Shown here: positions 7,431 through 60,825 of the stretch, piece by piece | Position numbering within the stretch: position 1 is the stretch's first letter | Layout: every line of letters begins with the position of its first letter | IMG/VR virus record: IMGVR_UViG_3300019487_000001 | Span: 126,001 to 190,000 of that record | Reading direction: 5' to 3' (one strand) | Source: a virus | Length of the DNA: 64,000 nt | The notes under the pieces: generated by a model | The model's database searches: none | What the model saw: only the letters and a program-made list of their open reading frames with translations | Told to the model about the DNA's origin: nothing | Program-made: the position numbers and the translations under genes

Positions 7431-9353
7431 ATGACTGATAAATTTAAGGATACATTTCCTATAGAGGTTCAGTTCACCGAGGGTGAACAGCCTGCTGCAC
7501 AAAAACTGACGGGTTGGGCAAACCAAACCAATCGTGGACTTCTCTTGCTCGAGAAGGCCGTAGGTGATTTGTGGAATCAATCCCAGTCACCTGGTACACC
7601 ACTTTATGGTATACCCAATCAGATTGTCAATTTGGCTAGAGCCATAGGTCAAATGCAAGCGCTTAACCCCCGGGTGCTTGGTGATCTTTCCGTGGCTGGC
7701 TTTACTGAAGCTGTGCCTGCTGATTCCCAACAGTTTACCTTGTTGCATACTCCTAGCAGTGGTTTGCTCTTTTCTCCGTCGGGTGGTGCTTTTACTACTC
7801 TGAAACTAACTAAGGCTCAGCTCTTAGTCGATGGGGATTATTTTGTAGACGCAGCCCAGAGAACGGTCTGGACAAGATCCAAGACTGGTTCTGGTATCAG
7901 CGTTACCTATACGTACGAAGATGCTAACTCGTCTTATACCAATGCCACTTTCAACGTCATACCGCACTTTAACCAGGTTATTAAATGTAATATAACTCTC
8001 AACGCTGGCGGTGCAGGCGTTCATGAGGTCGCCCTGCCTCTTATTACACACGATCAGGACGGCATTCTAACAACTGGCATTGATCCTAATTATAACCAAC
8101 AGGCGACACTGCCTTTTGTTTTGTCCACATTGGCGCCTAATGACATCATAGCAAGTGGATTCTTGTCTTTGTGGGATCATCAGTCTAATCGGATCTTGGA
8201 GGGTGCAACTTATTTCTATCAAGATCAGCAACGCGTATATGTAACCGGCGTTGAACTAGACGCTGGCAATGCACGCTATTCTATTATAACTGTGGGTAAT
8301 AGTCTTACCGGAGCTGTTGACTATTTGCTCGATAAGATGCTCAATCATGCCCACCGCAATGACGGTTCAAGTGCCATACAGCACGGCAATCTCCGAGGTC
8401 TTATTACCGGAGGCCTGACAGACAAAGGTGGAACCAATTCCCTATCTTTTTCCAATTCTAAAATTGCTAACAATGACCATGCTCAATATCTGCATAGGGC
8501 TGGTTATAAATACAACAAGACCCCAGACACTACAGACGAAGGCACTTATAACAATGCCATGGTCGGCGATATTCTCATGGGGTCTACTCAGAAAGCTGGC
8601 GGCACGGTTGAATATGTGAATCTGTCAGCTAACAGTTTCGAACTTATCTTCGGTAATGACACTGGAGATGCTCCCAGGTTCGGTTATGTCCAAGCAGATG
8701 ACAAGTTACAAATGAAGGGCACCAAGCCCATGCGCATTAACTCTGGTTCGTTATTTCTTGGACAGGATTCTCCAGCTGGATTACGTCGCATTGTTGCCGA
8801 GATCGGATCTTCGGTTGAACCCGAAATCTTCTATGATCCTGGTTATCAAAGCTGGCGTATTGGCCGCGAGGGTGGTACTGATATTCAGAATCTGATCGGT
8901 GTTCCGATCGGTGCGGTAATTGACTGGTGGAGACATACAGGTCTAGTTCCTGTTCCATTTGGTTTCGTTGTAGCAGATGGCGCTCCAGTCTCTGATCCTC
9001 TCTCCCCCATGTTCGGTATAGTAACCCCGGATTGTCGCAATAAGTTTGTACGGGGCCATGCTACGATGCCGACCACTGGTTTTACTTCTGGCGGAGCTGA
9101 CACGTTTGGTCTACCTGCTCACAATCACACTCTTTCATTGGCTGCCAATATAAAGATTAACGATCTTATTCCGTTTTTTAACGTTGATATTGAGGATCCA
9201 GACTTAGCTTTTGACGCTTTCCCACCCAGCGGTGGTGCGACTCGTACATATAACCTAAACGTTACGACCAATAGTATTTCTAACAATGGTGGAGCTACCG
9301 TTAACACGGTGCCTGCCTATGTTGGCTTGAACAAGATTATACGTATTAAGTAA
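7431..9353 (+). CDS. Tail fibre protein with C-terminal collar domain
   Basis: This 640-residue fibre protein follows a GGGGTG ribosome-binding site. The C-terminal 150 residues form a phage tail collar domain: IGAVIDWW, then a VPFGFVVADGAPV loop, FVRGH, GLPAHNHTL, and the closing VGLNKIIRIK. Collar domains sit at the receptor-proximal end of short and long tail fibres. The middle contains AHRNDGSSAIQHGNL, a fibre repeat-like stretch, and the upstream part has the GDYFVDAAQRTVWTR strand module shared with neighbours. It carries no GHKF motif, unlike the genes either side. Recognition of the collar domain is firm; receptor binding is inferred. Confidence 0.85.
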   Translation: MTDKFKDTFPIEVQFTEGEQPAAQKLTGWANQTNRGLLLLEKAVGDLWNQSQSPGTPLYGIPNQIVNLARAIGQMQALNPRVLGDLSVAGFTEAVPADSQQFTLLHTPSSGLLFSPSGGAFTTLKLTKAQLLVDGDYFVDAAQRTVWTRSKTGSGISVTYTYEDANSSYTNATFNVIPHFNQVIKCNITLNAGGAGVHEVALPLITHDQDGILTTGIDPNYNQQATLPFVLSTLAPNDIIASGFLSLWDHQSNRILEGATYFYQDQQRVYVTGVELDAGNARYSIITVGNSLTGAVDYLLDKMLNHAHRNDGSSAIQHGNLRGLITGGLTDKGGTNSLSFSNSKIANNDHAQYLHRAGYKYNKTPDTTDEGTYNNAMVGDILMGSTQKAGGTVEYVNLSANSFELIFGNDTGDAPRFGYVQADDKLQMKGTKPMRINSGSLFLGQDSPAGLRRIVAEIGSSVEPEIFYDPGYQSWRIGREGGTDIQNLIGVPIGAVIDWWRHTGLVPVPFGFVVADGAPVSDPLSPMFGIVTPDCRNKFVRGHATMPTTGFTSGGADTFGLPAHNHTLSLAANIKINDLIPFFNVDIEDPDLAFDAFPPSGGATRTYNLNVTTNSISNNGGATVNTVPAYVGLNKIIRIK

Positions 9354-12865: not shown

Positions 12866-14785
12866 GTGTATTATAAGCTCTTATGGCAGCGACAGCCGTT
12901 AGATTTTACCGGTCACTATCTGGGTGTAGACTTTAAAGATGGGATCGGTGAAACCAAGTGTCATCTCTATTATAACGCGCTGAGATTTAGATATTGCAAA
13001 GATATCTCTCCGCCAGAAATGGTTGAGGCGAGATCTAAAAGAGATCTCAAAAAGATTTTAGTAGTACGTACGGGAGCCTATGGTGACCTTATGATGGTCA
13101 CCCCGGCAATACGGGGTCTTCGAGAGAAGTATCCCGATGCTGAGATTGATTTCGTTGGTCGATATCCCAACATTGAGATTCTTTATCAGAACCCAGATTT
13201 GAACAGGGTTCTTAACGATGTAAGAGTTACGGACATTGGTTTACTGTGCCCTAACTATGATGAAGTGTTTGATCTTTCTCATAGCATAGAGCTCAATCCG
13301 GAATCCGACTGGGTCAATGCGCAAGAGTTAAGTTGTAAGTGGCTTCAGGTTGAGCCCAAGAGCTATGAGCCTGTGATCGGAGTTACGGAGCAGGAAATGG
13401 CTTTGGCTCGAGACATGTTGCATCGCAATGGTGTTGATTTGGCTAAGTATCGCGGTTCTATCATAATGATGCACATCGAGAGCACGGCTCCATTGCGCAG
13501 GATGCCAGATGTAGTTGCTCTGACTACCGCCCAGCATTATGCGGAGCTTGGCTACAAGGTTATATTTAACGGAGTAAACACAGAGCTGTCACGCGTTAAG
13601 CTTGCTAAGTTACCATGTTGTGGTAGGACTAACACGGTGATCATGGATTCGAATTTTCAAAACATTCAGTATCCATGTAAGTTTTGCAACAAGACAGTAG
13701 TGCCGCAAATTACCAAGCTCCATTCTAATATTCATTTTCTGCAACATGAGGGTCATGAAACTCTCGTTAGACCTAAGTTTTTTACAGTGGCCTATGCCGA
13801 CGTCTTTGTTGGTGTTGACAGTTCCTTTTCTCATATTGCTGCAGCCTTTGGTCGTCCAAGTGTTTTATTGTATGGACCATTTGATGCATCTCTGAGAGCT
13901 AAGCATTGGCCCCATGCTTTGTGTATTCAGCCACAGCCAGCATGTGGACCTTGTCATCAATTAGCACCGTGGTGTGTGAGATACCAGAACGGGATTCCTC
14001 CCTGTACAAACGAGATCACGCCCCAGCAGCTTGTTGATGCTATAGACGCACACCTCGGTTTGAATGGTAAGAAATTTACAGGTAATAATAGTATGCAGTT
14101 TGCTTTACCTGAAGGCGAGCTAGATGTTACCAGGGATTGCCCGGCGTGTGGCCACACACATTCCGAACCTGTTGTTCGCAAAAAGAATGTGATCTATCGC
14201 AAGTGTGACCAGTGCCGTTCGCTGTTTACCAACAGAGAAGTTCTTAGTCCTTCGACTGGTTCTGTTTATCAAGCAGACTTTTTATCTTTGAGTGCTAGCT
14301 TTGTTCACGGGGTTTGGGCTTCCAAGGTTCTTGATATGTTAAAGAAAAATAACATTGATCAGCCACGGGTGGCAGAATATCGCCCACTTAACTCTGCTTT
14401 CAAAGATGAATTTGGCAAGCTTAATACCGGGGAATATGTTTCACTTGAAGATGTTGCACCGGACTCTTTAGATATTGTAGTAGGAATACGTTCACTAGAG
14501 AGAGCACCGAATCCCCGAGAGGCCTTGGCCGACATAAAAAATAAATTGAAGCCAGGCGGATTCTTGATGCTTTACGGACCGGCAGCCGATGCTTGGAATC
14601 GCAATAATGCCTGGGCGCACTTGAATACGCCAGTTGCCGGAGACAACAAGACTATTTTTAGTTCAGAAGGAATTCAAAAAATAACGAAGGAGGCGGGCTT
14701 TCAGGGTATAGAGTACAAACCGTTTACTAATGTTGAGGAACAAATGGTACTCGTACGCAAGCCAAGCAATGAGCCGATATCTTGA
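12866..14785 (+). CDS. GT9 glycosyltransferase fused to zinc ribbon and degenerate methyltransferase domain
   Basis: Residues of about 55-400 are a GT9 (ADP-heptose:LPS heptosyltransferase-type) glycosyltransferase. The N-lobe has RTGAYGDLMMVTP, and the C-lobe has VDSSFSHIAAAFGRPSVLLY followed by the C-x2-C/C cluster usual in this family. A four-cysteine ribbon follows (CPACG, then CDQC, about 430-455). The rest is a methyltransferase-like domain with the late motif LKPGGFLMLYGP. Its SAM-binding glycine loop (usually D-x-G-x-G) is not recognisable, so methyl transfer is doubtful. GTG start, AGAGG site. The position inside the tail operon suggests it modifies a virion protein or host surface glycan. 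Confidence 0.8.
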   Translation: MYYKLLWQRQPLDFTGHYLGVDFKDGIGETKCHLYYNALRFRYCKDISPPEMVEARSKRDLKKILVVRTGAYGDLMMVTPAIRGLREKYPDAEIDFVGRYPNIEILYQNPDLNRVLNDVRVTDIGLLCPNYDEVFDLSHSIELNPESDWVNAQELSCKWLQVEPKSYEPVIGVTEQEMALARDMLHRNGVDLAKYRGSIIMMHIESTAPLRRMPDVVALTTAQHYAELGYKVIFNGVNTELSRVKLAKLPCCGRTNTVIMDSNFQNIQYPCKFCNKTVVPQITKLHSNIHFLQHEGHETLVRPKFFTVAYADVFVGVDSSFSHIAAAFGRPSVLLYGPFDASLRAKHWPHALCIQPQPACGPCHQLAPWCVRYQNGIPPCTNEITPQQLVDAIDAHLGLNGKKFTGNNSMQFALPEGELDVTRDCPACGHTHSEPVVRKKNVIYRKCDQCRSLFTNREVLSPSTGSVYQADFLSLSASFVHGVWASKVLDMLKKNNIDQPRVAEYRPLNSAFKDEFGKLNTGEYVSLEDVAPDSLDIVVGIRSLERAPNPREALADIKNKLKPGGFLMLYGPAADAWNRNNAWAHLNTPVAGDNKTIFSSEGIQKITKEAGFQGIEYKPFTNVEEQMVLVRKPSNEPIS

Positions 14786-16718
14786 TAAATTCGTAAGCGT
14801 TATTCCTGCCGTACAGGGCAAGCAGATTACTGAAATTCTTAGTAACAATAAAAACCTGGGCAGTATACGCACAGTCGAAGAGTATTCTCAGAAAGCTGAC
14901 GAGCTATTCCAGGTTCTCGCACAAACAGATCCTAAGCCTACCCTTAAGCTGTTCTTGGGAGAAGTAGATAAAACTCTTTCTTCTGAGACCTTCAACTTCA
15001 TGATGGAACGGATCATAGATGATCTAACGTCTGTTTTCAAGGAAGCTAAAAATATTGCTGATGTTGCGATCCTGCATCGCAAGCTCATTGTGGAAACAAT
15101 ATTGCGCAGCCTAAGGTTTGCTATCAATAACCTCAACGACAATATCAGCGTGCACGAGTTCTTATCCAAGAACAAAGATGGTTTTACTGCTGCTCAGTTC
15201 AATTCATTCAAGCAAGATAACGTGCTTAAGACTGCCCGCACCGACGCCTTGGCAACAGCCTTGTACGTTGATCCTAGTACCGGTCTCCTTGTCCCCGCTA
15301 CCGAAGACGCCGTTGTAGACCCTGTCGGTGAACAGTTGCTTCTATCCGCTTCTCTGACAAAAGAGATTCTGATGAAGAATGTACGTTTAATCCTAGATGC
15401 TGATACTCGTGCCACAGAGGTTGACGTCACCTTCCCCGGGTCAGACATTAAACACATCATCGATGGACAAGAAGATACTTATTGGATTAACGATGTCCTA
15501 CTGAGCTCACCAGAGCCAGAGGGTGTTATTATGAAACTGGAATTACAATTGGCCGGTATGCAAGAAGTAAACTTTATTGAACTAGAGCCTGCCACCCTGT
15601 TTCAGTTTTCTTTATTCGAGATGGACTATATAGACGCTTCGGGAAGTCTACGACACATACCGCTAGATGAGGTTGTTTTAGATCGTCCCCGTCGCTTAAA
15701 TTTTTCTAAGATAACTACGAATACGATCATCTTGTCATTTCGACAGAGGACTTATATTCGTGCTAGATATTCCTTTAATGCAGATACTCAATCATACGAA
15801 CGTATCGTAGCCCAGGATCCCATTACACTAGAGGATGTTGATTTCACTTCGGTTGAACAAGAGCTTAGTGATCTCATAGATTCAGCTAATTTGAAAGCAG
15901 CTATCGGTGTAACCCAGGCGGGCTTCCAGTTCGATGACGTCGATATGTTTGAGTACATCGCAGGCTTTGATAATATACGGGTGGGCTTGAATCAATACAA
16001 TGAGCGTGGAATATATGTTGGATCTAAATTAGAATCCCCGCGTCCCGGCGTTCTCGGACTTCAGGTGAATGCTCAGCGTAATCTACACGAAGTACTTGGC
16101 TACCCCATAGACAGCTTAGAATTTACAGTCTACAAACAAAACTTTGATTCCAGTGGCAACTTTGTTGACACTGAAGTGTTTAATGTTCCACCGGTTAGTG
16201 AAACCTCTATGAGTCATGAGAGAATGCTTCTTAGCGATCGGACGGCCCTACCTAATGATACTGGAGTGCTACGCTTTTATCCGGATGTTACTAAGCCATT
16301 TAAGATATTCAGAGATGGCACAGAGCTTACCATCGGTTCAGATTATCAGGTATCTGGAGACAGCGGAGTTAGTTATCAGTCAGTGCTTAATCCGATTCTT
16401 CATAATCCCGGTGGCCAGTTTCATGACTTCAAGGTTCAGATCATAGGTCCCGCTAGTACTTCCATCTATACTGCTTCCTATACACCATTGTATAACGTAT
16501 ATGTGAACAGTGGTCGGACGGCCACACTGGTTAATGGCAATCTTATTAACTTCGTACTCGAGCGTACGACCAACAGTGTTGATAGATCCGAGATGTATTT
16601 GATTATCACTTTGCGCCGCAACTTTACAGATGTAACTCGCACACCGGAGCTGCGGGATTATAGTTTTCTGGTTGGCTCTGTAGACAAAGAAAAGTTCACG
16701 GGAGACGAATTGACCTAA
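14769..16718 (+). CDS. Large tail/baseplate protein with discoidin-like domain (1 of 3 related)
   Basis: About 649 residues, starting from the ATG inside the end of the previous gene; an upstream in-frame ATG at 14730 is also possible and neither start has a clear ribosome-binding site. The N-terminal 150 residues are helical. A domain beginning I-I-D-G-Q-E-D-T-Y-W (about residue 235) resembles the discoidin (F5/8C-like) fold, and a related ILDGNADTW segment occurs in the next gene. The C-terminal half is beta-rich. No GHKF motif is seen. A particle component is inferred from size, fold and neighbours. Confidence 0.6.
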   Translation: MSRYLDKFVSVIPAVQGKQITEILSNNKNLGSIRTVEEYSQKADELFQVLAQTDPKPTLKLFLGEVDKTLSSETFNFMMERIIDDLTSVFKEAKNIADVAILHRKLIVETILRSLRFAINNLNDNISVHEFLSKNKDGFTAAQFNSFKQDNVLKTARTDALATALYVDPSTGLLVPATEDAVVDPVGEQLLLSASLTKEILMKNVRLILDADTRATEVDVTFPGSDIKHIIDGQEDTYWINDVLLSSPEPEGVIMKLELQLAGMQEVNFIELEPATLFQFSLFEMDYIDASGSLRHIPLDEVVLDRPRRLNFSKITTNTIILSFRQRTYIRARYSFNADTQSYERIVAQDPITLEDVDFTSVEQELSDLIDSANLKAAIGVTQAGFQFDDVDMFEYIAGFDNIRVGLNQYNERGIYVGSKLESPRPGVLGLQVNAQRNLHEVLGYPIDSLEFTVYKQNFDSSGNFVDTEVFNVPPVSETSMSHERMLLSDRTALPNDTGVLRFYPDVTKPFKIFRDGTELTIGSDYQVSGDSGVSYQSVLNPILHNPGGQFHDFKVQIIGPASTSIYTASYTPLYNVYVNSGRTATLVNGNLINFVLERTTNSVDRSEMYLIITLRRNFTDVTRTPELRDYSFLVGSVDKEKFTGDELT

Positions 16719-23929: not shown

Positions 23930-24259
23930 ATGGCTCTTCAAACATTACCCAAGATTGTCGGCAAACAAATCGATGGCAAGTTGCGCTATCAGACATGGAC
24001 GATCTCTGTAACGGTGTCAAATGACTATTTGATTCCGTTGAAGGAATCTCTTTGGAACTTTTCCAGTAAAGGATATCTTCGAACAACCGCGAATTTGTTA
24101 ATTCGGTTGAACGTAGATCCTGCTAGTCCAACTACCTCACCCATGGATGAGATTGCTATTCTTGCGAATGATACCTTTGTTTGGGAAGACGGTATATCAA
24201 TTGATAATATCTATATCCCAGCAGGACAATCAGCAACCGTTAATATCTACGCAGAGTAG
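23930..24259 (+). CDS. Small beta-rich protein downstream of the fibre gene
   Basis: A 109-residue soluble protein with alternating strands; the closing segment YIPAGQSATVNIYAE suggests a jelly-roll or Ig-like domain. It has a very strong ribosome-binding site (GGAGGAAGAAAG). It follows the fibre gene by 18 bp and precedes the actin module. Likely a small virion subunit or fibre accessory; no family is recognised. Confidence 0.5.
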   Translation: MALQTLPKIVGKQIDGKLRYQTWTISVTVSNDYLIPLKESLWNFSSKGYLRTTANLLIRLNVDPASPTTSPMDEIAILANDTFVWEDGISIDNIYIPAGQSATVNIYAE

Positions 24260-31986: not shown

Positions 31987-34503
31987 ATGTTTAATGATAG
32001 AGTATTAAATTCGGATGAGGTTATTGCAAAACTGTTCCCGTATCTTCCTCAGTATCTCGAGGAACATGGCATTGATCCCAGTAAGCCGTTCAAGTGTATA
32101 AGCGCAAAACACGATGATAAGACTCCCAGCTGCTCCATAGTACCGGAGAGCAAAGTTTCTGGTGTCTGGGTATATAAGTGTTTTGGTGGTGGCTGTGGGC
32201 ACACTGGCAACATCTTCACTGCCGCTTCGGATCTCGAGAACAAGCCCCGTTCAGGCCCTAACTGGGTAGAAGAAACCCTAATTTATCTCGCCGATAAGTA
32301 CAAGGTGCCTGTTGAATTTCGAGAGCTCACCGAGTCCGAGAAGTTTGAATACAACACCTACCGTTGTTACAGAGATGCTGCTGAGCTGATCGCTGATCGC
32401 AAGCTCGGTGACTATAAGCATTTTGATATCGAAGCTAGACGTCGCAACTGGGATAGGGATATCTTGGAGAAGCTCGGCGTTGGCACCATCGATTACTCTA
32501 CGTTCCGCGAGTCGCTGAAGAACATGGGCTGGAACACAAAATTCTTGCAAGAGATTGACTTGGACAGGAAGGATCTTTTCAGCGAGTTTTCCATGATCTT
32601 TACTGTCAAGGATGAGCACGGTCGCCCCGTAGGTTTTGCTGCTCGCAACTTAAATTTTGAGAAGATGAAGACTGCCGAGAAGCGAGCCCCCAAATATATC
32701 AACACCGCCTGTAATAGTATGCGCTTCAATATTTACGACAAGGAAGCCAGACTGTACAATATTCATTTAGCTAAGGGTAGCACACCACCACTATACCTCT
32801 TCGAGGGATACGGAGATGTTATATCTGCATACCATAACGGTATCCAGAACGCGGTAGCGATCTGTAGTTCGACCCTTACAGATTCTCAGTTAGCCCTTAT
32901 CAAGAGTATCGGTTGCAACGAGATCATCCTCGGATTGGACGGGGATGCCCCGGGGCAAGCTGCAGTGGAAAAATTACTAGACGAGAAATTATCAGGTAGG
33001 CGTGACCTGAATATAAAAATCATGCACCTTCCCGGTGGCCAGGATCCTGACGAATTCCTGCGCAATAACACCGTAGAAGAGTTTAGAGCCCTTAGCCGCA
33101 TGAGTGCTTTCGAGTGGCGCCTGCGCCGCTTTGAAGAGGGCACACCCTCAGATGAAATTTGCAAGCGCATGATCCCGCTGATTGTTAACGAAGAGTCATA
33201 CATTAACCAAGAGACTATGTGTGAGCAGTTGTCCAGAGAGACCAACCGTTCACTTAAGTTCATTGTAGCTGAGTTAGAACGCTTGCAGAATCTCAAGTCT
33301 AAAGAGCTCTATGAACATCGGGAAGCGATTGTAGAGAAGACTTTCTACGACATTAAGCGCAATCCTGATGATGTTCGCTCCATTCTGCTTCAGGCTGCCG
33401 ACCAGGTTTCCGAGATAGAGAATCGATTTGACGAGAACAGTCTTTCGATCAATACGACCCTTTCTGTTCTGGAAGCTCAAAAGGCGGACGAGGAAAAGAA
33501 GTCCGACGAGTTCGCGGGCTATTATCTTGGTGATGCCCTAAGAGGATTACAGGATAAGCTGAACGGCGACTGGCGCAAAGACTGCGTTGTCTTCTTGGGT
33601 GGCAAAGAGAACTGTGGAAAGACAAGTTTAATGTGTCAGATTGCCTATGAGATTGCTAGAGATCCACGTAATAATGCTACAGTCATTTACCACAGCACGG
33701 ATGATACCATTGCTCAAATCTGGCCAAGATTTATTTGTACTTCCCAGGATACTCTCTTGGATTTGGGTCAGGTTACCCATCCTAGATACTGGCGAAAGAA
33801 GGTAGGTCCGAGCGTAGAGGGGCGACGGAAAAACGGTTATCAAGAAATTACCGACCTCGTTCGTGAGGGTCGATTAGTATTGCGCGATGTAACTTATGGC
33901 GATACTGTGTCGTACGGCGAATCTCTCGTGAAGTATTACAAGTCCAACTTCCCGGATCGTAATATAGTTTACATCATGGATAACTTCCATAAGTTTAGTG
34001 ACTTTCCAAATCTAGATACTAGGGAGAGGTTTACAAATCTTTCTAATAAAGTGAAGCGTCTTGCTACCGTGCACCATGTCACTGTTCTTGCTACGGCAGA
34101 ATATACGAAGCTTGGGCCAGGCATGAAGCCAAGCAATAACAACATCGCCGAGGCTAGAGCTATGCAGTATGACGGGAACGTTCTCTTGCACTTGTATAAC
34201 GATCTGCATGATATGGGGTCACAGAGTACGGTTTATCATTTGGACGAAGATGGCGAAACGCATCTGCCGATTATCGAGATCATCTTTGGTAAGAATAAAG
34301 TCAGTAGCTTCAAGTCGAACATGATGCTTAAGTTTTTTCCCAAAAGTGCCCGCTTCCATTTCATTGAAAAGGAAGAGGTACATAACAAAGTTCTACAAAG
34401 TAAAGCACAGCACATCCTAGAGAAAGAGCAAGCTAAAGAGCGAGTGCAACACATGCTGGAGGCTGTAAGACCCAATGGCCAAACAAGAACCGCCGGATCT
34501 TAA
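31987..34503 (+). CDS. Primase-helicase fusion (CHC2-like zinc finger, Toprim, DnaB-like helicase)
   Basis: An 838-residue protein. The N-terminal zinc-finger-like segment (KCISAKHDDKTPSC, then KCFGGGCGHTG, residues of about 36-75) resembles DnaG CHC2. The Toprim core is YLFEGYGDVISAY (about 260) with GLDGDAPG as the D-x-D. The helicase half begins near 490: Walker A GGKENCGKTSL, Walker B-like VYIMDNFHKF. The order resembles T7 gp4, joining primer synthesis and strand unwinding in one polypeptide. Length is greater than T7 gp4 (566 residues) because of a helical linker (about 370-490). RBS GGGAGG. Confidence 0.9.
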   Translation: MFNDRVLNSDEVIAKLFPYLPQYLEEHGIDPSKPFKCISAKHDDKTPSCSIVPESKVSGVWVYKCFGGGCGHTGNIFTAASDLENKPRSGPNWVEETLIYLADKYKVPVEFRELTESEKFEYNTYRCYRDAAELIADRKLGDYKHFDIEARRRNWDRDILEKLGVGTIDYSTFRESLKNMGWNTKFLQEIDLDRKDLFSEFSMIFTVKDEHGRPVGFAARNLNFEKMKTAEKRAPKYINTACNSMRFNIYDKEARLYNIHLAKGSTPPLYLFEGYGDVISAYHNGIQNAVAICSSTLTDSQLALIKSIGCNEIILGLDGDAPGQAAVEKLLDEKLSGRRDLNIKIMHLPGGQDPDEFLRNNTVEEFRALSRMSAFEWRLRRFEEGTPSDEICKRMIPLIVNEESYINQETMCEQLSRETNRSLKFIVAELERLQNLKSKELYEHREAIVEKTFYDIKRNPDDVRSILLQAADQVSEIENRFDENSLSINTTLSVLEAQKADEEKKSDEFAGYYLGDALRGLQDKLNGDWRKDCVVFLGGKENCGKTSLMCQIAYEIARDPRNNATVIYHSTDDTIAQIWPRFICTSQDTLLDLGQVTHPRYWRKKVGPSVEGRRKNGYQEITDLVREGRLVLRDVTYGDTVSYGESLVKYYKSNFPDRNIVYIMDNFHKFSDFPNLDTRERFTNLSNKVKRLATVHHVTVLATAEYTKLGPGMKPSNNNIAEARAMQYDGNVLLHLYNDLHDMGSQSTVYHLDEDGETHLPIIEIIFGKNKVSSFKSNMMLKFFPKSARFHFIEKEEVHNKVLQSKAQHILEKEQAKERVQHMLEAVRPNGQTRTAGS

Positions 34504-35176
34504 CGATCATCGGATCGATAAGGTTCGACAATACATTCTTAGAGTTGTTAAAGAGGAGTATGATCGACTCCTAGAGGTGGCACCAAGTGATAGCGCCACC
34601 CAGGAAATGTTTCAGTTGATGGCGCAGCGGCTCGAGCGCGAAGTTAATCGCGTCATCAAGACCTACAATGAAACCAACAATGACAATCTTTATATACGAG
34701 ATTACAAGCTAGACATAATGCCGGTGGTTGCTTCGCCCGGACTGAAGCAAGTTACAAGCGGCCAGTACATTGACATCGAACTGTTTTGGTATGAAACAGA
34801 GTTTGATCTCAAGGGTATGGTCAAGATGAAATATGTATGTTCTGTTAATCGGTGTCGTGCCGATATGAGAAAGATTGATCCATTGACCGTTGTTATCGAC
34901 GGGGTGGAATACGACTTCTGTCCTGATTGTTTTAGGCACTTCAAGGCTTTTACAACTCAGCGTCTTAAGCCTGGCCGTAAAACTAAACTAGCTGCCCAAG
35001 AGTGGGCCAAGTTCAAAAAGAACCATGATGCTCGTATTAGGAGAGGCCCCTCGATGCTTATCAATTTAGCTACCGAGGCTGTTCGAGCCATTGATGCACT
35101 TGAACAACCGACCCAGGATGAGATTGAAGATTTCTTTAGAACGCCCAGCGAGGCAGATATGGAGGAAGAAGAGTAG
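34475..35176 (+). CDS. Zinc-finger protein, paralogue 1 of 3
   Basis: A 233-residue protein. After a helical N-terminus (10-80) and a small beta region comes a treble-clef-like finger, VCSVNRC then YDFCPDCFRHF (about 125-155), with spacing C-x5-C-x~18-C-x2-C-x2-H. The next two genes repeat this pattern. An acidic tail (EIEDFFRTPSEADMEEEE) follows. It overlaps the helicase gene by 29 bp, with GGAGG upstream. Probably binds nucleic acid or a replication protein. Confidence 0.65.
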   Translation: MAKQEPPDLNDHRIDKVRQYILRVVKEEYDRLLEVAPSDSATQEMFQLMAQRLEREVNRVIKTYNETNNDNLYIRDYKLDIMPVVASPGLKQVTSGQYIDIELFWYETEFDLKGMVKMKYVCSVNRCRADMRKIDPLTVVIDGVEYDFCPDCFRHFKAFTTQRLKPGRKTKLAAQEWAKFKKNHDARIRRGPSMLINLATEAVRAIDALEQPTQDEIEDFFRTPSEADMEEEE

Positions 35177-50547: not shown

Positions 50548-50949
50548 TTATACTAGCATACCGAATCTGCCACGGTCAATCTTTTCTTTAGGAGGAGGTT
50601 CGTGGTTAACACGGAAGTAATGATGTTTTCTCCATATATCCCCCTTAGGGTTAGGCATGAACGGGAGTAGATCTGATAGGGTCACCGCTAATACGTGAGG
50701 CATTTCCTCGGTGCTCGAATGACCGCGTTGATGCATTGATGGATCAAAGGAATAGCCGTCGTCGTCCTCCTGGTTTGGATCTTTACCAGCTTCCATCCAG
50801 AACCAGTGTTTCTTTGATTTGTCATATCCAGTTAATACACAGGTGTTATGGGTAGATGACCTAAAGACATAAACGATTTGCTCTGGTCCGGCAAGTACAC
50901 GGTACAGGTGGTGTCCCCATTTGGTTTTAGGTTTTTTAGGTACAGTCAT
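50548..50949 (-). CDS. Small protein upstream of polymerase, ending in RFGMLV
   Basis: A 133-residue soluble protein, rich in aromatic and His residues (KHWFWMEAGKDPN, then RKHHYFRVNHEPPP), ending GRFGMLV, the shared C-terminal tag. It lies immediately before dnaE and overlaps the GIY-YIG gene by 14 bp. A polymerase-linked role is possible given its position. No family is recognised. Confidence 0.6.
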   Translation of the reverse strand: MTVPKKPKTKWGHHLYRVLAGPEQIVYVFRSSTHNTCVLTGYDKSKKHWFWMEAGKDPNQEDDDGYSFDPSMHQRGHSSTEEMPHVLAVTLSDLLPFMPNPKGDIWRKHHYFRVNHEPPPKEKIDRGRFGMLV

Positions 50950-51607
50950 AGCAAATCAATCTTCCTTGTTCTATGTTGCAAGTGTCACATCCACAAAGCA
51001 CATGATTTTCTTTGTCTTCTTCCGTCCATTCGTCCCAGAATGGATTTGTTACAGTAATGAACTTATCTTTTTTGCGTGCATTATTCTCGGCCTCTTCATA
51101 AAACAGAGCTGCAATAATCATGGGACCCTCGAAGTCAGGCCAGCAGCATTCCCCTCCATCATACCCTAGCGCAAAATAAACCTCTTGTCCTATTGCGAAG
51201 GGCTCCTTGCAGTACTCGCAATGCCAAGAAGATTTACGATGACCACGTGGATAGCGTCCGTTCGAAATATTATACCCTAATTCTCGAGCATTACATTCTT
51301 TTATGGCATGTTGCTCTAATATATTAATCTCTTCGTGGGTATTGGCACGAGCAAAAATGGTCCAGGGAGCCTTGGAATAAATTCTAAGTGCCCGATAAAA
51401 TGGTGTATCTTTGTGTTTTTCTAGAGCTTGATACAGATGTGCCGCTAAGCGAACAGGAAAGTTCTCGGTAGCACCAATATAAAACTTTCCGTTAGGGAAA
51501 TCTACCCGGTATAAGAGGAACGTTCCCAGGCGTGGATCGGTTTTATCCGTTACCGGAGGCCTGGGGAATGTTTCTATCCATCTACCTATTTCATTTCTTA
51601 ACTTCAT
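50936..51607 (-). CDS. GIY-YIG nuclease with C-terminal zinc ribbons
   Basis: The start at 51607 overlaps the GP88 stop as TAATG (223 residues). The nuclease core is TFLLYRVDFPNGKFYIGAT (L-Y and Y-I-G) with VRLAAHLYQAL and a later E (HEEINILE). Cysteines follow: CEYC, GGECC, CGCDTC and CYDC, giving two metal sites. GIY-YIG enzymes with fingers are often homing or resolving endonucleases; a phage-genome-specific or host-DNA-degrading role is possible. Confidence 0.75.
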   Translation of the reverse strand: MKLRNEIGRWIETFPRPPVTDKTDPRLGTFLLYRVDFPNGKFYIGATENFPVRLAAHLYQALEKHKDTPFYRALRIYSKAPWTIFARANTHEEINILEQHAIKECNARELGYNISNGRYPRGHRKSSWHCEYCKEPFAIGQEVYFALGYDGGECCWPDFEGPMIIAALFYEEAENNARKKDKFITVTNPFWDEWTEEDKENHVLCGCDTCNIEQGRLICYDCT

Positions 51608-52257
51608 TACCTGAAACAGATACCACACTTCTTACAGTTCATTTCCTTCCCTGCTTTGATACCATTCTCTACAGGGCACACCACTACACCCTCCATACGT
51701 GGCATCCTAGCTTCACGTACGGCCCTAAAAACGAGGTCTACAGGGTAGGGAGGGGTGTCGGTATCCGTCAATGCTAACCAGGCCCGCTTAAAGCCTACTG
51801 GAGGCTCTCCGGTGCCTCTATCACATGATGCCCAGACGGTTACGTTAGGTAAACTGCTGAGTTCTATTAGCTCAGGAAGGATGATAGGGATCCGCCAGCT
51901 CCTGGTGTATGTCCAGAAGTGAGTGTCCGGTCTTAGAATTGCTACTTTCGTCCACGCTTCCACGTACTCGGGGCTAAAGAAGTCCCCTCCTACATGAATA
52001 CGGAACATGGGGCCTCGTATGATTGGCACGAGGTCCAATATCTTGGCAGGATTCTCTCTTACCAGAGAAGAATTATGAGCCCAATAGGGGCCACCGAAGT
52101 ATAAACTGGTTCCTTTTGCAGCGTAACAGATCGCCGCACACTCGGCAGTCTCACCTGGACAGTCCATGTGAGGAGTTATAGAGAAACTCTGTACATGACC
52201 GAGCTTACCGTTCTCTTGAGAGAGATGAAGTTGTCCTGGAATTGTTTTTATCGGCAT
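51607..52257 (-). CDS. GP88-like phage protein with cysteine clusters
   Basis: The 216-residue protein has MDCPGETAECAAICYAAKG near residue 31, the signature of the phage gene-product-88 family, then RIHVGGDFFS, TYTRSW and a final CKKCGIC. Members are found in many phages and have unknown function; the Cys pattern suggests Fe-S or zinc binding. The ATG has no ribosome-binding site and is preceded at 11 bases by TATAAT, so the transcript may be nearly leaderless. Confidence 0.75.
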   Translation of the reverse strand: MPIKTIPGQLHLSQENGKLGHVQSFSITPHMDCPGETAECAAICYAAKGTSLYFGGPYWAHNSSLVRENPAKILDLVPIIRGPMFRIHVGGDFFSPEYVEAWTKVAILRPDTHFWTYTRSWRIPIILPELIELSSLPNVTVWASCDRGTGEPPVGFKRAWLALTDTDTPPYPVDLVFRAVREARMPRMEGVVVCPVENGIKAGKEMNCKKCGICFR

Positions 52258-53296: not shown

Positions 53297-53844
53297 AATA
53301 GCTCCCCAAATCTTGATTTTGATTTATCATCCGCTAACACATCTTGAACATTGCCCTGTTCTATACGATCCAGTCTTTTTAGGATCTCTTCTTGCTTGCG
53401 AAGATACCAGTGCGCCAACCTAACCCAGTCGGCAATAAATTCATTGTGAGCACGAGCTTCTAGGCTATCAATTAGTCTTTGAGAATGCTCATCTTCGAGT
53501 GGCACAAAATTCTCCCGTCTTATGGCTGATCGAGCCCATGCGTCTACATCAGTGGGTCCGGTAATACGTCCTAATAAGTCTACGGGTATACTAGAAGGTT
53601 CATATATAGGTACCGTACGTGGAGCTACCAGTGGTTGTTCCGGAAGATTAGCTTGGTACCGCCACCTCTTCATCAACCAGACCTCGAATGGATCACCCGG
53701 CGTGTCGATGGAATACATCTCAGAAAAACCACGGAACTGAACTACGTTCCTCCATGAAGAGTAATAAGCACTTGCAGTGTAGGCTGTATGGGCACCACCG
53801 GGTATATCATATGATATAATCCCAAAGCCCCTATATGTCGTCAT
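53293..53844 (-). CDS. Hypothetical protein ending in RFGELL, after the GHKF scaffold gene
   Basis: The start at ATG 53844 overlaps the end of the 979-residue gene, giving 183 residues; the longer frame to 53994 runs through that gene and is not needed. The product is rich in Tyr/Trp early (YSSWRNVVQFRGF) and helical late, ending KSRFGELL, the shared tag. Its linkage to the repeat protein suggests a virion or assembly role. Confidence 0.6.
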   Translation of the reverse strand: MTTYRGFGIISYDIPGGAHTAYTASAYYSSWRNVVQFRGFSEMYSIDTPGDPFEVWLMKRWRYQANLPEQPLVAPRTVPIYEPSSIPVDLLGRITGPTDVDAWARSAIRRENFVPLEDEHSQRLIDSLEARAHNEFIADWVRLAHWYLRKQEEILKRLDRIEQGNVQDVLADDKSKSRFGELL

Positions 53845-56770
53845 CCACCAAAGCAATCTTAGCGATAGCATTCGGACCTGTATACCGGACAGTGACACGA
53901 GAATTCCGCGAAAGATTCTGGTCAGCAGTGAGATTTGCATCCGAGACTTTTTGCTCGATTGTATTTTTGTTTGCTCTGATGACTGTACCGCCAAGGTCCG
54001 CTCCCAAGAGGTCTAGTAACTTGTCCCCTCTTACTTGAATGATAGTTCCACTTATAGCATTCCCTGAAACTTCCTTCAATAATAAGATTTCTCCCACTTT
54101 ATTGGGAGCCTCTAACTGCAATTGTAATAGAGCTGGTAACCGTAGAATGAACTTGACTGTTATTGTGTCAGAGATTCTACAAATGCGTGGAGTGGCAAAG
54201 TATGGAGCTACAACTAGAGCGACGGATTCAAGGCCATCCGGGTCGAATGCACCTGGTGCATAAAATAAAGGAGATCCGTTAGACAGTTTGCCATCTCTGC
54301 CTGCACCGGGACGCAATTGGATCTCAACAATAGCCTCCGCCAGTTCTCCACCTAAGAGAGGGCCACCGAGATTGAAGGTACTCTCGAGCATGGCCGGATC
54401 GAACGGCGGGAAGATGGGGCCATTGATAATGTTCTGACCAATAACTATGTTGTTAATCTTTAGAGTGATGGTCAGTTTATCGATGGGCCACACTTGACTG
54501 ATAGCTTGACCGGGGAGATCTGAGTCTTCGAAGATGTTAAAGCCGGTCGCCTGGACTTTGATCTGGGTGTCATTCAATATCGTATCGCTACCATCCGGAT
54601 TAGATATGGTGATGTCAGTAAGATTACACTGGGGGTCCTCATTAAACCGATAGAGGTTCACGTCATAGTTATCGAACGGTATGGGGAAGATACCTTGGCC
54701 TCGCACCAACGCCGATGGCAGCGCTCCAAACAGACCGGTGCGTGTGAAGGTATGATCGGGCGTATTAAGATCCAAGCCTTCACCAGAAGCCTTTGTACTC
54801 GTAGGTGTAGCTGGTACAAAGACTGGGATCTTAATTAAACCTAGATAAGGCCTACCCCCTAGATCGATATCAAACTCCAGAGGACTTGGGTATTCCTCAC
54901 TACCGATAGGTCTGTGATCGAATGGAGTGTGATCATCGGGGGTACCTTGGCCATGTTCCACCAGGAGACCAGGGAACGGGTCATTGGTATTTGCAACACG
55001 AGGATCTGGGTGGGCAAGGATTGGGAGAAGAGGCTTTGTGAGCCGCCAGACATCTACGTCGAAAGCAGCGCTACCATCTACATCATTAAAGGTAAACGGG
55101 TAGACGTCATTCTCAATCGGATGGCGTTTGAATCCATCGCCACCGTCAAAGACAGTGGTTCCAAATGTCTGGTTCTTATTGATCTCGTATGCAACTGCGG
55201 GTACGCCACCAACTCCCAGCGTTCCCGTCTCCGGTGGTTTGTTCCCTAGAATTGAGTGCTCGAAAATGCCACGGATAAACCGGTCTATTCCGATACCGTC
55301 ATCTAGGGGTACAGGGAGATCAGAGGTGTGTCTGATCATTGAGTTCGGATCGTGGTGAATATTGTGGGGAACTCCACTATCCAAAATATCTGTATTATGA
55401 ACGTCGCTACCGACATGGGTCTTAGCGTCCAGGTCGATATCTGAGTAACCAAATCTTATTGCGACAACATTAAAATTGTCTCCGTCTAGGTCAATGATAC
55501 CCGTCGGCATAACCTGGAACCTGTGCCCTTGGAAGCCGGGCAGCTTCGGTATATTAACCTCGAACTTGTGTTGTAGAGAGTCTCGGCGGGATCCTACGCC
55601 GTTGGCAGAGAAGATGTGACCTAAGGCATCTGATCCTATATTGAAGGGCTGGAAGAACTTATGGCCCAAACTCTCGATAGTAGAGACCTGGGTAATAGCA
55701 AGGCGGTGGAAGAGGAAGTCAAAGGCTCTGAGAGCACCTTGGAACTTATGACCGAATTGATCTTCTGCATCCTGCTCGACCGCGAAACGATGGTTGAGGA
55801 CCTGACCGATGGCACTGAAGTGATGTCCTAGAGCATCTATGGTGCCAACCTCAACGGCAAGTCTATGGCCGAGGGGTTCGTTCGCATTGATGCCAGCGAT
55901 GTTAAACTCATGGCCTAGCTCATCTGTATCATCCTGAGTAACACCGAAGCGACAACCTAGGGCATCCGTAGCATTTTGGGCAACGGCAAACTTATGACCG
56001 AATGGATCTCCGAAGACACCGAAGCGATGCTCCATTTCATCTTGTGTGCTTATAGATACGGAGAACTTGTGGCCGAAGTTATCTGTTACGAATGGTAATG
56101 CAAACTTATGACCTAGCGCATCCGTAGCATCTATGTGATCAATGTTGAACTTGTGTGAGAAGTTATCTTTAGCTTGGACAGTACCGGTGAATTTGTGACC
56201 AAGGGCATCTGCCTGGTCTACAAATCCTACAGTAAACTTGTGGCCAAGTTCGTCTGTATCCCGAATCTCATTACAATTAAACCGATGACCAATGTGATTC
56301 TGAATTTCAGCACGGAACTTATGGCCTAGGGAGTCTGAAGCATTAATCTCATTGACATTAAACCTATGCCCAAACCTTTGACCTTCGTCAAAGGGATAGG
56401 GGGGAACGTCAATGCCGGGAATGGTAAATTTATGACCGAGTTGGTCGGCTGGAGTGGCGTTGAACTTATGACCTAGTTCATCTTGATCGTCGATATGATC
56501 GACGTTGAACCGGTGTCCTAGAGCATCAGTAGCACTGATGGGACTTGCGTTGAACTTATGACCGAGTGCGTCAGTAGCTTGAACAGCTACGGTAAACTTG
56601 TGCCCTAGTTCATCGGTCGCAGTAAATACCGCTGTGAACTTATGTCCGAGTGCATCAGTCGCATCAATATGATCGACGTTAACCCTATGCCCTAGGGCAT
56701 CGGTTCCGAATTCGCCGAACTGAATAACGACGGCACATAAAAGAGGTATGTTAATGGGGGTACAGGACAA
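53831..56770 (-). CDS. 979-residue protein with about 28 tandem GHKF-type repeats and beta-rich C-terminal region
   Basis: Residues 20-420 are almost wholly tandem copies of a 10-22-residue unit (mostly about 14-15), consensus [AE]LGH[KR]F-x-[VA]-x(3-5)-[AT]-[TD]-D. Examples are TDALGHKFNV and DELGHKFTV; exceptions include LGCRF and LFHRL. Residues 420-979 are beta-rich domains without motifs. Shared phrases with the + strand tail proteins (VDHID, GHEFNIAGI) indicate a common origin. The start is uncertain: a TTG at 56770 with only GGGAAG 12 bp upstream; no better in-frame start exists before the first repeat. Probably a large virion or scaffold protein; I recognise no known family. Confidence 0.75.
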   Translation of the reverse strand: MSCTPINIPLLCAVVIQFGEFGTDALGHRVNVDHIDATDALGHKFTAVFTATDELGHKFTVAVQATDALGHKFNASPISATDALGHRFNVDHIDDQDELGHKFNATPADQLGHKFTIPGIDVPPYPFDEGQRFGHRFNVNEINASDSLGHKFRAEIQNHIGHRFNCNEIRDTDELGHKFTVGFVDQADALGHKFTGTVQAKDNFSHKFNIDHIDATDALGHKFALPFVTDNFGHKFSVSISTQDEMEHRFGVFGDPFGHKFAVAQNATDALGCRFGVTQDDTDELGHEFNIAGINANEPLGHRLAVEVGTIDALGHHFSAIGQVLNHRFAVEQDAEDQFGHKFQGALRAFDFLFHRLAITQVSTIESLGHKFFQPFNIGSDALGHIFSANGVGSRRDSLQHKFEVNIPKLPGFQGHRFQVMPTGIIDLDGDNFNVVAIRFGYSDIDLDAKTHVGSDVHNTDILDSGVPHNIHHDPNSMIRHTSDLPVPLDDGIGIDRFIRGIFEHSILGNKPPETGTLGVGGVPAVAYEINKNQTFGTTVFDGGDGFKRHPIENDVYPFTFNDVDGSAAFDVDVWRLTKPLLPILAHPDPRVANTNDPFPGLLVEHGQGTPDDHTPFDHRPIGSEEYPSPLEFDIDLGGRPYLGLIKIPVFVPATPTSTKASGEGLDLNTPDHTFTRTGLFGALPSALVRGQGIFPIPFDNYDVNLYRFNEDPQCNLTDITISNPDGSDTILNDTQIKVQATGFNIFEDSDLPGQAISQVWPIDKLTITLKINNIVIGQNIINGPIFPPFDPAMLESTFNLGGPLLGGELAEAIVEIQLRPGAGRDGKLSNGSPLFYAPGAFDPDGLESVALVVAPYFATPRICRISDTITVKFILRLPALLQLQLEAPNKVGEILLLKEVSGNAISGTIIQVRGDKLLDLLGADLGGTVIRANKNTIEQKVSDANLTADQNLSRNSRVTVRYTGPNAIAKIALVDDDI
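55500..56710 (-). repeat. Tandem array coding for the GHKF peptide
   Basis: About 28 coding units of 30-66 bp (mostly 42-48). Codons vary widely among units encoding the same residues, so selection acts on the peptide, not on the DNA. Neighbouring units share longer phrases in places (ATDALGHKF), suggesting repeated unequal exchange. Confidence 0.85.
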
Positions 56771-56949
56771 TTAGGTACACGCTTCCCAGTAGATGGGCCT
56801 AGCTAAAATCGAGGACGTGAGCAGCGCACGGGGGAATTTAAAACTGCGAAGCAGAAAGCAGTGGTTTTGAATTCCCAAGGAGCAGGTCGACGCCCGGAGA
56901 TTTTAGAAAGAGCCGTGGGGAAGATGCGTAAGGGGGTGGGGAAAGGGAA
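56771..56949. ncRNA. Candidate structured RNA or regulatory leader in GC-rich gap
   Basis: This 179-bp gap lies between the 291-residue gene and the GHKF-scaffold gene. Nested pairings: CTAAAATC (56803-56810) with GATTTTAG (56899-56906); CGTG-AGCAGCG-CACG (56816-56830); and GGGAATTTAAAAC (56832-56844) with GTTTTGAATTCCC (56864-56876, 13 bp with one G-T). CTGC-GAA-GCAG is an alternative inner hairpin. The layout is a multi-arm junction. It is GC- and purine-rich unlike the flanks. It could be a leader or small RNA on either strand; I match it to no known class. Confidence 0.5.
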
Positions 56950-57825
56950 CTATTCTTGTAAAAAGGTTATGTTACCGTATCCAGCAAAGCCGCCGTTGGG
57001 TTTGAATAATCGATAGACGTCGGCGCCGTCGGTAAGAGTATCACGGGATACCCAAAATCCATCTGTTGCCAGAGCAAAGATGTCTAGTAATCTACCGCGA
57101 TAATGCCTATTGAGAGCTCCGTGACTCGTCGGAGAGACCAGAAAGAAGCTATACAGATACCATCTGTTATCCCAAACACTGGGATTAGCTAGGTTATGGT
57201 CAATGACAGAGATACTTGCCAAGAACGGATCGTTCTCAGCAAATGGATCTGGTGCACTTGCAACTGCACCTGTACCTGCCGTATTGAAGGTCTGCAGGCT
57301 ACCGCCGCTTCCAGTTGTACCGTTACCGTTTACTGCCACTACCGGTACTGGATCTTGCGCTGGGGTATGAAGACGTGCGTATGTCCCAAAGTAGAACAAC
57401 GAAATGATCCCTGTATGAGAGATGTCTCCCTCTAGGGCAATAATGATCCTGTCTTTAGAGACAGAGATCCAGAAGGCAACCAGATCGTTTTCTGATACGA
57501 AGTTACCATCTGTAAATACTTCCTGATTGAATTGCTCGGTCACCACCGTCATGCCAGCATTCAAACCGCCACGCCATCTCTGGTTTCGCTGAGGAGTTCC
57601 CTCTCCTAGCCACTGCCAGTACATGTCGATTTGGTTAATGTTCGTAGGAATGCCGCCACTAGTTGGACAACGAGCGATTCTTAATGACACATTGGTTCTT
57701 TCCCATGCGTCTCCTGGAGCTGCCGTCACGCTGTTCCCGTTAGCTGCGACAAATCCAGTAACAAGATCATAGATCTGTTGATCTACGTCTTGCCATGTGA
57801 GTGTTCCTGTTAAAAAGGATGTCAC
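56950..57825 (-). CDS. Probable virion surface protein
   Basis: The 291-residue protein is beta-rich and soluble, with Gly/Asn loops, aromatic clusters (IDMYWQWLGEG, then DNRWYLYSFFLVSP) and an end FAGYGNITFLQE. The style resembles fibre or head decoration proteins. It lies two bases after the zinc-ribbon gene stop and upstream of the GHKF gene. It has no GHKF motif. No family is recognised. Confidence 0.55.
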   Translation of the reverse strand: MTSFLTGTLTWQDVDQQIYDLVTGFVAANGNSVTAAPGDAWERTNVSLRIARCPTSGGIPTNINQIDMYWQWLGEGTPQRNQRWRGGLNAGMTVVTEQFNQEVFTDGNFVSENDLVAFWISVSKDRIIIALEGDISHTGIISLFYFGTYARLHTPAQDPVPVVAVNGNGTTGSGGSLQTFNTAGTGAVASAPDPFAENDPFLASISVIDHNLANPSVWDNRWYLYSFFLVSPTSHGALNRHYRGRLLDIFALATDGFWVSRDTLTDGADVYRLFKPNGGFAGYGNITFLQE

Positions 57826-59240: not shown

Positions 59241-59269
59241 AGTATACAGTATGAACTATGAACTGTCAA
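59241..59269 (-). promoter_or_regulatory. Near-consensus sigma70 promoter for recA
   Basis: On the - strand TTGACA is followed after exactly 17 bp by TATACT; recA starts 28 bp beyond the -10. The spacer holds a direct repeat GTTCATA-GTTCATA, and TGAAC/GTTCA arms flank the -10, a possible operator. No LexA-type box matches. Confidence 0.8.
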
Positions 59270-59747: not shown

Positions 59748-60341
59748 CTAAGTCCTCCTCTTTTCTATTTCTATTTTAATTTGCTCGAGTAAGTATAGCC
59801 AATTGTGGTTAGGCAGTCTATGAATATTCTCATAATTCTTTTCACAATCACCATAGACAGTTTGATTATATGAATGCGGGGGAACAAAGACTTTGATCCC
59901 TGCAGCTGCACATTTATGCGCCACCGTTGGGTGGTCGTCAACTAGGATTGGTATGTGGTTTGCTAGACAGATGTCTTGCTTCTCATTAGTGAACGCAATC
60001 CAGTCGTAATGTATCTTGTACTGCGACAGCCACCAATGAGTGTCTTGGACGATCTCAGGATACTGCCAGCGGTGGGTGATGATAGCAATTTCACAACCCC
60101 AAGTCTCGTGAAGCTCTTTAATGACTGACGGAATATTAGGATCAATAATGGGAGCATTTCTAAATACAAATGGAGTGAAGGCTATCTTCTCCATCCTCTT
60201 ATCTGAGACACCTGGTATCCGGGCACGAGTGCCTTGCATCTGGTTTGGATCAAAAGTCTTACCTAGCTTGAGACTACATACCTCAGAGAAAAATTGATTA
60301 AACGCAACGATGGTATTATCGAGGTCAAAGGCTATTTTCAT
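59748..60341 (-). CDS. HAD-family 5'(3')-deoxyribonucleotidase-like phosphatase
   Basis: The 197-residue product has motif I AFDLDNTIVAF (residues 4-14), motif II Thr (IAIITHR), Lys (NEKQDICLA) and motif IV PILVDDHPTVAH. The arrangement matches small HAD nucleotidases (NT5C-like). It dephosphorylates deoxynucleotides, or another small phosphate ester. The motif I second Asp (D-L-D) is intact, so it should be active. Confidence 0.8.
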   Translation of the reverse strand: MKIAFDLDNTIVAFNQFFSEVCSLKLGKTFDPNQMQGTRARIPGVSDKRMEKIAFTPFVFRNAPIIDPNIPSVIKELHETWGCEIAIITHRWQYPEIVQDTHWWLSQYKIHYDWIAFTNEKQDICLANHIPILVDDHPTVAHKCAAAGIKVFVPPHSYNQTVYGDCEKNYENIHRLPNHNWLYLLEQIKIEIEKRRT

Positions 60342-60825
60342 AGCTAACCTCCAAGTATTGAACTGCTAATCTAATGCGTTCCGGGCTATCATTGAAGCAC
60401 CCGATTCCTTGGTTACACTTCTCGCACAACAGGCCCCTGATTCGGCCAGTTGTATGACAATGGTCTACGGCAAACGCCTTACTGAACTCATCTCTATGCT
60501 GGGAACACACTGCACAAAGGAAGTTTTGTTGACCTAAAATACGATCATATTCTGATGCAGTAATACCAAACTTGTTCTTCAAGCGAGCGTTTCGCCTCTG
60601 TTCATATGTTAACTCGATGCGAGCTCGTTGTGATATCTTTTCAAAGTTCTTTTCGTACCAGGCCTTATTGCGAGCGTTAGAGTATTCTTTATTTCTTAGA
60701 TACCAGCTAGCTGCGAACGCTTTCACACAAACCTTGCAACACCAGGCAAGCCCGCCCTTCCTCTTCCTTGACTTATGGAACTCTGATTCTTGCTTGTTGT
60801 ATTTGCAACGGGGGCATTTCTTCAT
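60325..60825 (-). CDS. Recombination endonuclease VII (HNH, T4 gp49-like)
   Basis: The 166-residue enzyme starts CPRCKYNKQESEFHKS and has a second C-x2-C (WCCKVC). The core FGITASEYDRILGQQNFLC, then CSQH, FAVDHCHTTGRIRGLLC and EKCNQGIGCFNDSP is the endonuclease VII family pattern (DHCH, G-L-L-C, N-x-x-x-G). Such enzymes resolve Holliday and branched DNA before packaging. Second junction-resolving function in this window, with RusA. Confidence 0.9.
   Translation of the reverse strand: MKKCPRCKYNKQESEFHKSRKRKGGLAWCCKVCVKAFAASWYLRNKEYSNARNKAWYEKNFEKISQRARIELTYEQRRNARLKNKFGITASEYDRILGQQNFLCAVCSQHRDEFSKAFAVDHCHTTGRIRGLLCEKCNQGIGCFNDSPERIRLAVQYLEVSYENSL

Follow-up and report, generated by a model that had tools for sequence, protein, structure and literature searches.

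The window analyzed here (64,000 nucleotides) comprises bases 126001-190000 of the 194,631-bp (194.6-kb) virus record IMGVR_UViG_3300019487_000001. The portal protein of this phage (L008:728-3082, same record) shared ∼30 to 33% identity with those of Moorella phage MTATph1, Bacillus phage KLEB27-3, and Acinetobacter phage ME3 and 35 to 53% identity with many IMG/VR contigs; the ME3 record gives its homologues as in phage 0305phi8-36. On these portal comparisons, the phage stands alone within a broad clade of large myoviruses, with 0305phi8-36, MTATph1, KLEB27-3, and ME3 as its kin. No multi-subunit RNA polymerase gene was found in the record.

From ∼62 kb down to 44 kb, the main genes of the window are all on the − strand. 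Read in that direction, a virion structural protein gene is followed by a 179-nt gap (56771-56949) and then by a gene for a 979-amino-acid protein made of repeats around a G-H-K-F core (Table 1). Also present in or near this block are a near-consensus σ70 promoter before the phage recA gene (59241-59269, − strand; TTGACA-17-TATACT), an Endonuclease VII/HNH-type gene (60325-60825, − strand) of which the record holds at least three paralogues (L007, L008, and L010), and a free-standing GIY-YIG endonuclease gene (50936-51628, − strand) between DNA polymerase III alpha and other genes.

The virion protein has three full or partial relatives in Moorella phage MTATph1, and its alignment to phrog_9130 reaches position 265 of 286. 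Its gene is therefore not truncated, and an intron or a translational bypass that would link the flanking genes is unlikely; both were rejected, because the upstream gene has the length expected for its family. A group I or group II intron was likewise rejected, with no Rfam core match and an upstream gene that is not incomplete.

The downstream gene had been called a scaffold gene in a preliminary description of the locus, a name that found no support. The 979-amino-acid product had no real family match. Its ∼42-nt tandem repeats (56551-56663; whole gene, 53831-56770) encode ATDALGHKF-type units for which the Pfam match was only subthreshold, and a match to Microcystis phage Mel-JY01 was dismissed as a low-complexity artifact. 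In the Mel-JY01 entry itself (PP395634.1, L002:1-3052), a + strand open frame of at least 1,016 amino acids with collagen-like GTSG repeats overlaps the two genes annotated on the − strand (1-651 and 739-2298), an annotation that is probably on the wrong strand. A second GHKF-repeat gene (L007:17272-18399, + strand; 375 amino acids) is found in the structural module of the same phage record, preceded by a spacer of only 33 nt that is not structured; a repeat gene of this family thus does not in itself entail such a gap.

Table 1. Genes and predicted elements at and around the 56771-56949 gap (window positions)
Feature	Positions	Strand	Details
Virion structural protein gene	56950-57825	−	291 aa; phrog_9130, E value 6e−6
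GHKF-repeat protein gene	53831-56770	−	979 aa; TTG start directly after TAA
SD-like site TGGGAA	56783-56788	−	−4.2; only one before the TTG start, 12 nt away
C-rich, G-poor 78-nt stretch (C29:G5)	56897-56974	−	Rho rut-like; overlaps end of upstream gene
Core of candidate structured RNA	56776-56935	+	MFE −62.0; mean probability of MFE pairs 0.94
Outer closing stem, 5′ arm	56776-56787	+	MFE; partner 56918-56930
Outer closing stem, 3′ arm	56918-56930	+	MFE
GGCCT arm	56796-56800	+	MFE; partner 56909-56914
8-bp stem, 5′ arm CTAAAATC	56803-56810	+	100% complementary to 56899-56906
8-bp stem, 3′ arm GATTTTAG	56899-56906	+	100% complementary to 56803-56810
Purine-rich irregular zone, 5′ side	56811-56831	+	MFE; holds alternative CGTG/CACG hairpin
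Purine-rich irregular zone, 3′ side	56877-56898	+	MFE
Apical 16-bp helix, 5′ arm	56832-56847	+	MFE; 3 G-U on +, A-C mismatches on −
Apical 16-bp helix, 3′ arm	56861-56876	+	MFE
Alternative hairpin CTGC-GAA-GCAG	56844-56854	+	Sequence
G-quadruplex-type motif, four G runs	56917-56947	+	Composition; one of few in genome

The core of the gap is predicted by minimum free energy (MFE) to fold as one unbranched rod of 53 pairs. The 8-bp and 13-bp stems noted previously are both present as parts of this rod, the two ends of which are joined by an outer closing stem that the preliminary description had missed. The 13-nt arms (56832-56844 and 56864-56876) are 92% complementary, and their one mismatch becomes a G-U pair on the + strand, where the apical helix extends to 16 unbroken pairs with G-U at all three non-Watson-Crick positions. 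A 4-bp stem, CGTG/CACG at 56816-56819/56827-56830, could be identified in the sequence as described; it belongs, however, to an alternative fold, and enforcing it costs 7.7 kcal/mol relative to the rod. The GAA-loop hairpin given as a further alternative was also found.

When compared with dinucleotide-shuffled sequences, the core folded far better than chance on both strands (z of −5.18 on the + strand and −4.49 on the − strand), with 0 of 1,000 shuffles folding as well on either; for the full gap, z was −3.9 (+) and −4.5 (−). The structured RNA candidate put forward in the preliminary description is upheld to this extent, and the gap is a real, statistically supported structured element without a known family. 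Its description as GC-rich holds mildly, at 53%, and the contrast is weak against 48% in the flanking genes and ∼45% in the genome. Long, GC-rich intergenic regions are an established source of structured RNAs in bacteria (PMC8723152), a pattern that fits the case for a structured RNA here without proving it.

A folding scan of the 64-kb window (514 strand-windows) ranked the gap third on the − strand and eighth on the + strand by z. Across gaps of ≥100 nt in the whole record, at least six others folded as strongly; six scored better than the target, with z as extreme as −12.6, and structure alone is therefore not exceptional in this genome. Some of the stronger-folding gaps are clear terminator-like or palindromic hairpins, whereas the target gap has no T run and shows extreme strand asymmetry. 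Gaps that folded as strongly as the target or more so lie at L005:7826-7955, L006:19190-19392, L009:3775-3880, L004:1056-1379, L006:15443-15562, and L007:278-437, and a perfect 21-bp palindrome was seen at L005 ∼7871-7916. In the window scan, the coding stretches 34501-34680 (− strand), 24001-24180 (− strand), and 13001-13180 had folding z values similar to that of the target.

That several other gaps of this phage hold strong palindromes raises the question of whether the element acts as DNA, either as a one-strand hairpin in replication or recombination or as the remnant of a mobile palindromic element. Both strands folded as DNA did beat their shuffles (z of −3.1 and −2.7), but no second copy of the gap element was detected in the genome, blastn of the gap DNA returned nothing from plasmids, and no skew change marking an origin occurs here, making a DNA-level role unlikely. 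An origin of replication at the gap was rejected on the same absence of a skew signal, and a direct repeat flanking the gap (TAAAAGAGGTATGTTA) was at chance level.

Relatives of the element were sought by several routes. An Rfam search, suggested in the preliminary description, matched no family: covariance models gave no match at the gathering score and none at E values up to 10 for 56600-57100, and Rfam and ARAGORN searches of the window and of the remaining parts of the record were also without a match. Against phages, blastn of the gap DNA gave only chance pieces at E values up to 10. Searches of IMG/VR with the flanking proteins, DnaE, RecA, and the portal protein recovered relatives that were all distant, and in none of them were the two flanking genes both present. 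A single-sequence covariance model (R1) had no match in 50 related records or the other loci tested, although a missing match in these fragmentary records does not amount to evidence of absence; a three-block pattern found 0 viral contigs and 32 chance-level genome matches. The element is currently a one-genome candidate. A coding remnant on either strand was rejected, having no family match. The lack of a homologue and an open frame of ∼70 codons on the + strand of the gap, which matches nothing, would suit a reading in which the gap has no function as RNA and is an oddly composed spacer, or what is left of a gene, that folds by chance. This reading is improbable given that none of the 1,000 shuffles folded as well on either strand and that the window has few long noncoding gaps.

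The two strands of the gap differ markedly. The MFE of the core is 12 kcal/mol better on the + strand than on the − strand (−50.2), and the 50-nt apical hairpin alone reached −21.7 versus −13.1. Unpaired bases are 89% purine on the + strand (49% A, 40% G), whereas on the − strand 85 to 87% are C or T (45% C, 40% T) and 15% purine. The 56830-56949 segment is the most purine-rich 120 nt of + strand in the record (0.70); the coding strands of the flanking − strand genes are purine balanced (0.49 to 0.53), and the asymmetry is absent from the genome's other structured gaps, in which the unpaired purine fraction is 0.38 to 0.60. In a small benchmark of four Escherichia coli RNAs (6S, RNase P, tmRNA, and 4.5S), the sense strand was the more stable in all four, and its unpaired bases were the more purine-rich in three, 6S being without purine bias.

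A + strand RNA is therefore favored, because the fold is more stable, the 16-bp helix is unbroken, and unpaired bases are purine-rich on that strand. We regard the case for a + strand RNA, which would be antisense to its two neighbors, as moderate, and the RNA strand as probably +. The unpaired purine fraction of 0.89 exceeds that of the known RNAs tested, and another cause of the strand asymmetry is therefore possible. Near 56776, a consensus search identified no σ70-type promoter on the + strand, and no promoter or terminator for a gap RNA was found on either strand; the same was true of intrinsic terminators (a GC-rich hairpin followed by a T run) on both strands from 56300 to 57400.

As the gap sits inside a − strand gene block, − strand transcription is expected, and the preliminary description had placed the RNA in the − strand mRNA. 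The fold at z of −4.49 is indeed present there, while the strand tests favor the opposite strand. Also correct was the observation that the downstream gene lacks a normal start: its TTG opens directly after TAA, and its sole SD-like site, poor and distant, falls within the outer closing stem.

These features form the basis of a serious rival, in which the gap acts on the − strand as an intercistronic mRNA element, either an RNase III site, a leader closing the weak start of the repeat gene, or both. Translation of the repeat gene would then be low or conditional, which was the main idea of the preliminary description. Consistent with this, the gap spans exactly the interval from stop to start in the − strand operon, for which the best nearby promoter is that at 59241-59269, the full gap folds well on this strand (z of −4.5), and the only SD-like site is enclosed in the closing stem. 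However, the fold is weaker on the − strand, with A-C mismatches breaking the main helix, and the unpaired bases are nearly all C or U, unlike those of most known structured RNAs. Moreover, the SD-like site would be too far from the TTG even if open. A translational or processing element is on balance possible but rather unlikely. Of the two options raised originally, the strand evidence agrees better with a separate small RNA than with translational control of the downstream gene.

The − strand of the gap is striking in composition (36% C, 17% G), its 5′ half being rich in C and poor in G. In a further reading, a Rho-dependent terminator follows the virion-protein gene, with the C-rich stretch as rut and the downstream hairpin as pause site. 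The 56897-56974 stretch has the composition of a rut site, ranking third among the distinct loci of the genome by C/G ratio, although any role for Rho is putative. A strong hairpin lies within 60 nt downstream of it, and there is no intrinsic terminator at this point. Termination here would, however, keep transcription from reaching the later genes of the block, and C-rich, G-poor stretches elsewhere in the genome include the noncoding strands of genes. We consider Rho-dependent termination unlikely.

Our preferred reading, held tentatively and at somewhat less than even odds, is that the gap specifies an independent structured RNA of ∼155 to 160 nt on the + strand, which would be stable, probably protein bound, and also a cis-antisense regulator. 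Such an RNA would run against the operon and adopt the rod described above, in which an outer closing stem, the 8-bp stem, and a purine-rich irregular middle lead to the 16-bp apical hairpin. Transcribed from the + strand, it would be perfectly complementary to the junction of the virion-protein and repeat-protein genes in the operon mRNA. Pairing with this junction in the − strand mRNA could mask the repeat-gene start or form a duplex for RNase III, and in either case the two genes would be uncoupled. If real, it would represent a stable phage RNA without a described family, in a large-myovirus lineage with poorly explored noncoding RNAs. Annotation would miss such an RNA because of its position opposite its neighbors, and it could prove to be a new antisense regulator encoded by a phage.

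The phage also encodes a retron-type reverse transcriptase (RT) of 329 amino acids (L004:14562-15551, − strand; record 14562-15551), which matched NCBIfam retron_St85_RT (E value, 8e−44; below cutoff) and PADLOC RT_III-A (E value, 3e−45) and whose best PDB matches are mostly retron RTs. Its operon (record ∼13.5 to 16.2 kb) carries SpoVG-like, cold-shock-domain, RT, and phosphoesterase-like genes; the RT directly follows the cold-shock-domain gene (PADLOC CSD_V; E value, 4e−9), and the 18 nt before it leave no room for an adjacent msr-msd. In a related phage contig (L174), a structured spacer of 389 nt directly precedes the retron RT. Retrons are described as contiguous cassettes with the priming G in a conserved AGC, although msr-msd copies that lack a nearby RT occur in Retron-Nex1 (PMC6868368). 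The candidate resembles an msr-msd in that its closing stem is like a1/a2, its apical hairpin is like msd, AGC follows its closing stems, and neither the retron-type RT gene nor the cold-shock-domain gene of its genome has an adjoining RNA. Nevertheless, the RT is ∼168 kb away from the candidate RNA (record 182776-182935), and the two do not form a contiguous cassette. The AGC at 56801-56803 follows an interrupted helix, so that no unbroken a1/a2 helix abuts it; AGC occurs several times in the candidate, and here the 8-bp helix directly follows it. A retron scan of the genome gave as its best match L007:3031-3243, which folds no better than chance. It is highly improbable that the candidate is the detached template RNA of this RT, as in a retron split in trans.

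Like 6S RNA (ssrS), the candidate is predicted to be a rod without branches, closed by an outer stem, capped by an apical hairpin, and of about the same length. What defines 6S RNA is a large central bubble that mimics an open promoter. No large open central bubble is predicted in the candidate, where the largest internal loop in the MFE structure is 8 by 3 nt; it also differs in its purine-rich loops and in having no Rfam match at E values up to 10. As a long hairpin between genes of one operon, the gap is reminiscent of T7-type RNase III processing sites. Those sites were shown by experiment, whereas the hairpin of the candidate is predicted and is better on the other strand.

Phage P22 sar, lambda OOP, and P1/P7 c4 are short, structured cis-antisense RNAs complementary to an intergenic junction. 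They have mapped promoters, terminators, and targets, whereas for the candidate no promoter was found by consensus and there is no Rfam match; its rod (∼155 nt) is also longer. The c4 antisense RNA is among those listed for phages (PMC2864571). As modeled, the candidate is like sar, OOP, and c4 in that it would be a structured RNA on the strand opposite the phage genes, complementary to the junction between them.
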